From Halorubrum ezzemoulense DSM 17463 (lineage in GTDB: Archaea > Halobacteriota > Halobacteria > Halobacteriales > Haloferacaceae), in NCBI RefSeq assembly GCF_002114285.1, contig NZ_NEDJ01000016.1, positions 1 through 55,161 on the forward strand: a stretch of 55,161 bases of DNA. Reading direction: 5' to 3'. The translations under genes and the position numbers were made by a program. The notes under the pieces were generated by a model that saw only the letters and a program-made list of their open reading frames with translations, made no database searches and had not been told where the DNA came from. Positions within the stretch are counted from its first letter, which is position 1; the number at the start of each line of letters is the position of its first letter. Below, one piece after another: positions 4,104-20,799 of the stretch.

Positions 4104-5786
4104 CTACTGCTCGACCGTCTTCGCCCCGGGCGCGTTGGCCTTCACGCCCGTCACGGCCTCGACGGCGTTCGACCGGGAGGCGTACCCCTCGCCTGAGTCC
4201 GCGAGGACGTTGCCGTTGCGGTGACGGAGCCGCCAGCGCCACTCGTCGGCGGCGTCCTCGTATATCTCGAACGCCGCCCCGCCGGCCGCCAGCGCGCTCG
4301 CGTCGGGGGCGTACTCGCCGACGCGCTTGACCGCGTCCGTCGCGTTCGACTCGGAGGCGTACCCCTGGCCGGAGTCGGCGATGATGTTCCCGTTGTCGTG
4401 GACGAGCCGCCAGCGCCACTTGCCGCCCCTGTCCTCGTAGGCTTCGAACGTCGCCTTGCTCTCGCCGTCGCCCGCCCGGCCCTCCGCCTCCTCGTCGTCC
4501 GGGAACTCGAGCCCCGCGCCGCCCGCGTTGGACCTGACGCTGTCGAGCCCCTGCTGTGCCTTCGACCGGGAGGCGTACCCCTGGCCGGAGTCGGCGATGA
4601 CGTTCCCGTTCTGGTGGACGAGCCGCCAGCGGTACTCGCTGGCCGCGTCCTCGAACACCTCGAACGCGGCGGGGTCGATCCGGAGGTAGTCCGCGGCTGC
4701 GACGTGGTCGCGCAGCTTCGAGAGCGCGCGCTTCGCGTTCGACTTGGAGGCGTACCCCTCGCCGGAGTCGCCGACGATCTCGCCGTTGTCGTGGCGGAGC
4801 CGAAAGCGCCACTCGTCGGCGGCGTCGGCGTACAGCTCGAACGTCGCGTCGCTCTCCGGGCCCTCCGTCTCGTCCGGGATGGCCACGTCCGGGTCCGTCG
4901 CGTCGGTCGGCTCCGGGCCGTCGTCGTCGGCCACGGCCGCCGCCTCCTCGACCGGCGTCTCGATCCGGAGGAGGCCGGCGCCGAGCGCGTTCCGGCGCAC
5001 GCTGTGGAGGCCCTGCTGGGCTTTCCCGCGGCTGCTGTACCCCTGTCCGGCGGTCGCGATGACGTTGCCGTTGCGGTGGCGAAGCCGCCAGCGCGGCTTC
5101 CCGCTCGCGTCCTCGAACAGCTCGAACCGGGCCTTGCTCTCGCGCAGCGACGCGACGACGGCCTCCGCGGCCGTCAGCTCGTCACGGGTCGCTTCGAGGT
5201 CGGCCTCTGTCTCCGAGAGATCTTCACGGGCCGCCTCCAGCTCGGACTCCGTCGACGCCAGCTCGCCACGGGTCGCCGCCAGCTCCTCACCCGCCTCCTC
5301 GGCCGTCGCGGTCGCCGCGGCGGCCTCGTCGCGCATGCGCTCGTAGTCCTCGTAGACGGGGTCCGAGAGCAGGGGGACGACCGTCCCCGCGACCCCGATC
5401 AGGAGGAGCCCGACCCCGTAGACGGTGATCACGGCCGGGTCGCCCGACGCGGTGAGCCACCCGTCCGGGAAGACGTTCACGAACCACACGACGCCGAGGA
5501 CGCTCACCGCCGTGCCGAGGTAGCCGAGGTACGTCCCGGTCCGCCGGAGCGGGAACCGGATCACGGCCCCGAGCATCACGAACGGCGGGGCCAGCGCGGC
5601 CAGCGCGTACCCGACGCCGCGGGCGACGGTCGCCGACTCGGTGAGGAGAAACACCGCGACGCCGGCGAGGCCGAGCAGCACGCCGAAGCCGAACAGCCAG
5701 TAGCCGTTCACCTCGTCGGTCGTCGTCGGCGTGCCGATTCGCCGCCGGTACAGTCCGCCGCCGTCTTGTTTGTCATCTGTTGCCAT
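4104..5786 (-). CDS. Membrane protein with coiled coil and five DUF1508 (YegP/HVO_2922-type) repeats
   Basis: 560 residues. After a short polar N-terminus there are four hydrophobic segments (about residues 27-142), then a Glu/Ala-rich coiled coil (about 150-215) and five repeats of roughly 57 residues. Each repeat reads FE-x-(F/Y)-x-D ... (R/W)RxRLxHxNGNxIAxxGxGYxS followed by a helix, the DUF1508 signature; two-repeat versions are common, five is long. The function of these domains is unknown. Start at 5786 is supported by a TATA box 25-33 bases upstream, giving a leaderless mRNA. The frame stays open far upstream to 10262, but that part is a high-GC shadow. A related two-repeat gene lies at 20131. 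Confidence 0.88.
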   Translation of the reverse strand: MATDDKQDGGGLYRRRIGTPTTTDEVNGYWLFGFGVLLGLAGVAVFLLTESATVARGVGYALAALAPPFVMLGAVIRFPLRRTGTYLGYLGTAVSVLGVVWFVNVFPDGWLTASGDPAVITVYGVGLLLIGVAGTVVPLLSDPVYEDYERMRDEAAAATATAEEAGEELAATRGELASTESELEAAREDLSETEADLEATRDELTAAEAVVASLRESKARFELFEDASGKPRWRLRHRNGNVIATAGQGYSSRGKAQQGLHSVRRNALGAGLLRIETPVEEAAAVADDDGPEPTDATDPDVAIPDETEGPESDATFELYADAADEWRFRLRHDNGEIVGDSGEGYASKSNAKRALSKLRDHVAAADYLRIDPAAFEVFEDAASEYRWRLVHQNGNVIADSGQGYASRSKAQQGLDSVRSNAGGAGLEFPDDEEAEGRAGDGESKATFEAYEDRGGKWRWRLVHDNGNIIADSGQGYASESNATDAVKRVGEYAPDASALAAGGAAFEIYEDAADEWRWRLRHRNGNVLADSGEGYASRSNAVEAVTGVKANAPGAKTVEQ

Positions 5787-20130: not shown

Positions 20131-20799
20131 ATGCCAGATGATACCATCCACGAGTCGAAGCGGTCGCGGACCCGACAGGGGCTGGCCACGTACCTCCGCC
20201 GGATCGCTCGGGCGCTGGGACGCGGCGAGCCGGTGCCGGTCGACGAGGCCGGCACGGTGACCGTCGACGCGGCCGCCACCGGCGACGTCGAGGTCGAACT
20301 CGAACGCGACGACGAGACGGTCCACCTCGAGGTCGAGATGGAGTGGCCCGATGAGGAGGCCGCGGTCGACTCCGACGCGGCCGCGAGCAAGGCCACGTTC
20401 GAGCTGTACGCCGACAGCGCCGACCAGTACCGCTGGCGGCTCCGACACGACAACGGGAACATCATCGCCGACGGCGGCGAGGGGTACGCCGACAAGCGCG
20501 ACGCCCGCTCGGGGATCGAGAGCGTCCAGCGGAACGCCCCGGGTGCGCACGTCGTCGACGTCTCGCGCGACGAGGAGGCGCCAGACGAGGGGGGCAGCGA
20601 CGCCGTCTTCGAGCTGTTCCGCGACAAGGCGGACAAGTACCGCTGGCGGCTCCGGCACGGCAACGGCAATGTCATCGCCGACGGGGGACAGGGGTACGCC
20701 TCCAAACAGAAGGCGAAACAGGGGCTGCGCAGCGTCAAGTCGAACGCGCCGGGCGCGGCCGTCGAGGAGCCCGGAGACCCCGAGGGATCCGAGGAGTAG
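20131..20799 (+). CDS. Two-repeat DUF1508 (HVO_2922-type) protein
   Basis: 222 residues. An amphipathic N-terminal half (about 1-85) contains VTVDAAATGDVEVELERDDE and then WPDEE, which looks like the amphi-Trp domain known from haloarchaea. Two DUF1508 repeats follow (about 88-145 and 150-210), each with YRWRLRH-x-NGNxIADGG-x-GYA. No membrane segment is present, so it is probably cytoplasmic. Function unknown. The same repeat occurs five times in the protein at 4104-5786, the only other copy in the window. It has its own promoter region of 148 bases upstream, without a sharp TATA box. Confidence 0.87.
   Translation: MPDDTIHESKRSRTRQGLATYLRRIARALGRGEPVPVDEAGTVTVDAAATGDVEVELERDDETVHLEVEMEWPDEEAAVDSDAAASKATFELYADSADQYRWRLRHDNGNIIADGGEGYADKRDARSGIESVQRNAPGAHVVDVSRDEEAPDEGGSDAVFELFRDKADKYRWRLRHGNGNVIADGGQGYASKQKAKQGLRSVKSNAPGAAVEEPGDPEGSEE

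Follow-up and report, generated by a model that had tools for sequence, protein, structure and literature searches.

DUF1508 domains are widespread, Escherichia coli YegP included, and to our knowledge have no known function. HVO_2922 of Haloferax volcanii, a dimer, consists of a single soluble DUF1508 domain of 60 amino acid residues and has no membrane anchor. YegP and its UPF0339 relatives (PDB 2k8e and 2k49) are soluble bacterial proteins with only two DUF1508 domains, about 51 residues apart in profile matches. A DUF1508-like fold is also present in the membrane-connecting extension of Cis12 (PDB 7b5h and 7aeb), which is part of a phage-tail-like machine; in the contractile injection system of Anabaena, the extra region of Cis12 connects to the thylakoid membrane (PMC8894136). 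Haloarchaeal DUF7139 proteins (PF23600), including a DUF7139-DUF7140 protein and the product of a volactin-adjacent gene, share the membrane domain of the protein analyzed here but have other cytoplasmic C-termini, without DUF1508.

Domain composition and predicted fold

In Halorubrum ezzemoulense DSM 17463, DUF7139 and DUF1508 are combined in one gene, located at 4104–5786 on the minus strand of the window, which is the whole stretch of 55,161 nucleotides that was analyzed. The open reading frame starts with ATG at 5786, stops at 4104–4106, and encodes a protein of 560 amino acid residues composed of DUF7139, a coiled coil, and five DUF1508 repeats (R1–R5). The GC contents at the first, second, and third codon positions were 0.72, 0.50, and 0.95, respectively, indicating a frame typical of haloarchaeal coding sequence. 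Full-length relatives with 39–91% identity were found in more than 25 haloarchaea, the closest loci being those of Halorubrum with 83–91% identity. The existence of these relatives and the dN/dS of 0.39 for the whole gene among Halorubrum-like genes argue that the protein is not the product of a chance open reading frame.

By Pfam profile search, DUF1508 (PF07411) was detected in five stretches with a total of 268.5 bits against a gathering cut-off of 22, and DUF7139 was detected at residues 12–137 with 82.2 bits against a cut-off of 30. The HVO_2922 model of NCBIfam (NF041908) also matched the protein five times. These matches confirm the five repeats and the membrane domain that had been proposed in the original prediction. 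The WRLxHxNGN core, which had been assigned to all five repeats, is retained in four of them, and R2 reads FRLRHDNGE. A second gene had been said to carry two repeats behind a different N-terminal module; Pfam and NCBIfam bear this out, because the gene at 20131–20799 on the plus strand encodes another protein, in which two DUF1508 domains (20413–20559 and 20623–20769) follow an amphi-Trp domain.

The DUF7139 anchor (5376–5753, minus strand) was predicted to form four transmembrane helices. The Kyte-Doolittle plot showed four hydrophobic peaks (1.7–2.4) centered on residues 40, 67, 96, and 128, all before residue 140, and no further peak C-terminal to the anchor in the whole 560-residue protein. 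The AlphaFold model likewise placed four helices there, in agreement with the four-helix anchor predicted earlier. Since the loop joining helices 2 and 3 (FPLRRT) is basic and the number of helices is even, both termini are predicted to lie inside according to the positive-inside rule. The repeats are thus predicted to be cytoplasmic; the surface location considered in the original prediction is disfavored, and a surface adhesin was rejected on the same topology.

A long helix with a heptad pattern, residues 144–215 (5142–5357, minus strand), follows the anchor and has a net charge of −16. A coiled coil linking the anchor to the repeats, as originally proposed, is therefore predicted in this gene but is not a constant part of the architecture: the stretch from the anchor to R1 ranged from 32 to 123 residues across orthologues, and the coiled coil was nearly absent in Salinarchaeum and in family f7. 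Its dN/dS was 0.50 and that of the anchor was 0.32 among Halorubrum-like genes. The putative coiled coil is a variable spacer.

The full-length AlphaFold model, in which four helices, a single 72-residue helix (144–215), and five beta-beta-beta-alpha units were recognized, was of middling quality (pLDDT, 67; pTM, 0.31), and the relative placement of its domains is unreliable. In the fold search, it matched YegP (2k8e) with a Z-score of 15.0 and an rmsd of 3.1 over 116 residues and SO3888 (2k49) with a Z-score of 14.5 and an rmsd of 2.2 over 109 residues, both within residues 367–527. HVO_2922 (6q2z), which matched every repeat by profile and showed 52–60% identity in the fold-search rows, was superposed on R1 with a Z-score of 8.1 and an rmsd of 1.4 over 60 residues. 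An isolated model of R2-R3 (pLDDT, 85; pTM, 0.45) matched HVO_2922 domain by domain with a Z-score of 9.5; its two domains taken together did not fit YegP, and the mutual placement of R2 and R3 in it is undefined. In these models, the repeats show the beta-beta-beta-alpha fold of 6q2z, 3bid, and 2k8e. The full model also matched the baseplate protein Cis12 (7b5h chain AD) with a Z-score of 8.1 and an rmsd of 2.6 over 100 residues, although the sequence link is weak (E 0.02). The DUF1508-like fold was located at residues 620–1161 of 7b5h chain AD and 571–636 of 7aeb.

Number, spacing, and constraint of the repeats

On the minus strand of the window, R1 (residues 221–270), R2 (316–365), R3 (375–424), R4 (447–496), and R5 (506–555) are encoded at 4977–5126, 4692–4841, 4515–4664, 4299–4448, and 4122–4271, respectively. 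Among the 54 genes measured, the start-to-start spacings of R2-R3 and R4-R5 were 58–60 residues in every case, and those of R1-R2 and R3-R4 varied from 75 to 137 and from 51 to 82 residues, respectively. A 1+2+2 grouping of the repeats based on spacing was weakened by the models, in which the YegP-like unit starts at R3 and R2-R3 do not resemble YegP as a pair. An R3-R4 spacing of about 51 residues, as in YegP, is seen in many orthologues outside Halorubrum, and for this reason we think that R3:R4 is the likeliest DUF1508 pair within one chain.

Between families, the best match of a repeat was its own counterpart in 73, 47, 50, 66, and 72% of cases for R1, R2, R3, R4, and R5, respectively, whereas 20% is expected by chance. 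This positional orthology, together with the equal copy number between families, led us to reject a recent tandem expansion. The original prediction had regarded the array as old and not a recent slip; the array is indeed ancestral, but recent internal recombination does occur, as seen in R1/R5 chimeras of two Halorubrum.

The repeats also differ in charge and constraint according to position. R1 has a net charge of +6 in this protein, and its charge ranged from 0 to +8 (mean, +4.8) and was never acidic in the genes compared; R4 was acidic in all of them, with charges from −10 to −1 (mean, −5.3). Among Halorubrum-like genes, the dN/dS values of R1, R2, R3, R4, and R5 were 0.09, 0.32, 0.31, 0.47, and 0.22, respectively, and that of the R3-R4 linker was approximately 1. 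The value for R1 was the lowest of all parts of the gene, indicating that the strongest purifying selection acts on R1.

Distribution in haloarchaea and a 13-repeat sister family

The original prediction had treated the architecture as unusual. Reading of the fetched loci showed that it is common in haloarchaea: an intact gene with DUF7139 and five DUF1508 repeats was found in about 45 of the 145 genomes sampled, in at least five families, and DUF7139 itself was present in 143 of the 145 genomes of the class. Every intact orthologue examined, from families f1, f2, f3, f7, and f10, had exactly five repeats. Public plasmid records contain it as well; that of Haloarcula marina covered 97% of the query and was annotated as a "DUF1508 domain-containing protein". 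Databases already contain both domains, and members of the family are labeled there "DUF1508 domain-containing" or "HVO_2922 family" proteins. A literature search found no published description of the five-repeat family or of the 13-repeat family described below and no paper on DUF7139, and DUF1508 was mentioned only in passing, in two places. The protein is one of an apparently undescribed class in which a membrane anchor bears a counted array of DUF1508 domains.

The gene also occurs in altered forms. In four genomes (L034, L085, L120/L134, and L133; three in the genome count), two open reading frames share the array, with the break between R3 and R4, and R4-R5 form a separate two-domain gene after a stop codon or as a new open reading frame; the split copies are those of Halorubrum sp. 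JWXQ-INN 858 (L034) and of three genomes of another, single genus. That these natural splits lie exactly between R3 and R4 argues against an obligatory covalent R3:R4 pair. A frameshift between the anchor and R1 was found in two genomes, three repeats in one genome (family f6), and a single repeat in another. An R1/R5 chimera is the sole repeat in H. californiense (L035; 4971–5849) and in a second Halorubrum (L080; 2174–2935); draft genomes may have suffered collapse during assembly, but the genome of L080 is in two contigs. In G011, all that is left is a free-standing R3/R5 chimera of about 61 residues, similar in size to HVO_2922, and truncated or broken copies were found in G072, G055, and G036. 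These split, collapsed, and decayed copies indicate that the gene is accessory and can be lost. L151 was also among the arrays collapsed to a single DUF1508 by recombination (R1 × R5 or R3 × R5). At another locus (L082; G005:C1:111500–114500), DUF7139 is followed by one degenerate DUF1508-like repeat, and the neighboring glycosyltransferase-like gene encodes a C-terminus with two weak DUF1508-like repeats.

No neighbor of the five-repeat gene was conserved between families, so the gene neighborhood indicated no partner. A role as a defense protein was dismissed, as PADLOC gave nothing beyond weak coiled-coil matches. A phage origin was also rejected: matches to viral contigs reached residues 202–560 only and none reached the anchor. 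The single annotated phage record covered 9% of the query, and a family search gave no known function for phage families carrying DUF1508.

A sister family has the same layout of an anchor followed by a fixed-number array but carries 13 repeats (L142–L149, L157, and L183–L213; for example, L142:1375–4164, minus strand). An open reading frame of about 930–1050 amino acid residues that joins DUF7139 to a C-terminal series of DUF1508-like repeats was found in 36 of the 145 genomes and 20 of the 58 genera, and all 35 intact DUF7139 copies examined had exactly 13 repeats. In L183–L187, a side branch whose hydrophobic N-terminus differs, 13 repeats were detected in four members and 12 in one. Unlike those of the five-repeat family, these repeats are spaced by about 58 residues, are divergent and on average acidic, and are joined to the anchor by a short link. 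In several families and genera, the 13-repeat gene adjoins two genes that resemble those of archaeal pantoate kinase and phosphopantothenate synthetase, both enzymes of coenzyme A synthesis. Such neighbors, named by eye, were noted at L174, L177, L180, L173, and L181.

Proposed role at the membrane

The reading that we favor, with a probability of roughly one half, is that the protein is a membrane-tethered cytoplasmic scaffold that oligomerizes through its coiled coil and through pairing between DUF1508 domains, R1 being its main contact site. The four-helix DUF7139 domain would insert into the membrane with both ends in the cytoplasm, and the coiled coil, whose length depends on the lineage, would join two or more chains and set their reach. 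The DUF1508 domains may pair, some within a chain, as in two-domain YegP, and others across chains, in the manner of the HVO_2922 dimer. Because DUF1508 domains pair in solved two-domain proteins, five of them on each coiled-coil-held chain should give a defined oligomer, and an oligomeric scaffold, as originally suggested, is plausible. The fixed number and position-specific sequences point to an ordered platform, which would lie on the inner face of the membrane, and argue against a string of equal binding sites. R1 is the best candidate for an essential contact, since it is membrane-proximal, basic, and nearly invariant; its polyanionic or acidic partner might be nucleic acid, an acidic protein, the R4 of a neighboring chain, or lipid head groups. 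Acidic R4 is in turn a candidate partner of R1 or may provide a second specific site.

The charge of R1 also bears on another reading, in which the DUF1508 domains, R1 foremost, bind DNA or RNA and thereby hold the chromosome or transcripts at the membrane. R1 is the basic exception in an otherwise acidic protein, one haloarchaeon has a DUF1508 inserted in an N6/N4 DNA methylase (L219:711–2282, minus strand), and HVO_2922 figures in a list of recombination/repair genes whose expression is raised by perchlorate, which is an expression result and a label rather than a binding test (PMC12175516). The other four repeats are, however, near neutral or acidic, and no binding data were found. In favor of this reading, the repeats also resemble the integrase arm domain Arm-DNA-bind_4 (PF14657), but the match of 17.5 bits is below the cut-off of 22.3. 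No DNA-binding arm domain was among the fold matches listed, although such an absence is no proof; assignment to that family was rejected, and we regard a nucleic-acid tether as unlikely.

Pairing could instead serve recruitment, with unpaired anchored DUF1508 domains capturing DUF1508-tagged soluble or membrane proteins such as those with amphi-Trp, glycosyltransferase, or PgsB-like domains. Pairing is suggested by DUF1508 structures with one and with two domains, and the DUF7139-linked arrays are odd-numbered (1, 3, 5, and 13), which would leave one domain free, but odd counts in four classes could arise by chance (1 in 16). Possible clients include a PgaC/IcaA-like family 2 glycosyltransferase whose C-terminus carries four DUF1508 domains (L150:2–2221, plus strand) and a fusion of a PgsB-like (poly-gamma-glutamate synthase) protein with two DUF1508 domains, in which the PgsB match is below the cut-off of that model (L220:121–1725, minus strand). 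Tagged proteins and anchored arrays do not always occur together, as G013 has the two-repeat gene without an anchored array, and such a docking hub seems quite unlikely to us. Least likely is a sensor or regulator, with DUF1508 as the binding site of a small ligand and the four-helix domain as the relay of a membrane signal: the order of membrane domain, coiled coil, and soluble domains resembles sensor layouts, and DUF1508 on polymer synthases may recall PilZ-type control, but Pfam and NCBIfam revealed no catalytic or known output domain and the coiled-coil length varies freely.

The place of other DUF7139 genes accords with the scaffold reading. Volactin is an actin homologue. In the source genome, another DUF7139 gene lies directly upstream of the volactin gene on the same strand (L074, G000:C73:25300–27600; Pfam Volactin, 262 bits). 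At least 37 genomes from six families, this one included, share the gene order and strand; in several Halorubrum, the two genes are apart. This adjacency suggests that DUF7139 proteins may attach cytoplasmic assemblies to the membrane. The volactin-adjacent DUF7139 protein is a candidate for the partner that volactin filaments have in the membrane. A second volactin-like domain was also noted in long open frames of about 770–1340 amino acid residues in many genomes (for example, G118:C2:40973 and G137:C1:710374). A broader proposal, which we consider very unlikely as a whole, is a haloarchaeal class of membrane scaffolds built from a DUF7139 anchor and an odd-numbered array of DUF1508 pairing domains (1, 3, 5, or 13). 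The domain left unpaired would link chains or recruit enzymes tagged with DUF1508, and DUF7139 proteins in general would attach cytoplasmic assemblies, volactin included, to the membrane.

The fixed number of specialized DUF1508 copies, among which R1 is by far the most constrained, provides a handle on the domain, its charge, and the membrane face concerned. Should DUF7139 attach cytoplasmic assemblies to the membrane in general, as its position beside volactin hints, this would help to account for the contact between archaeal actin filaments and the membrane.
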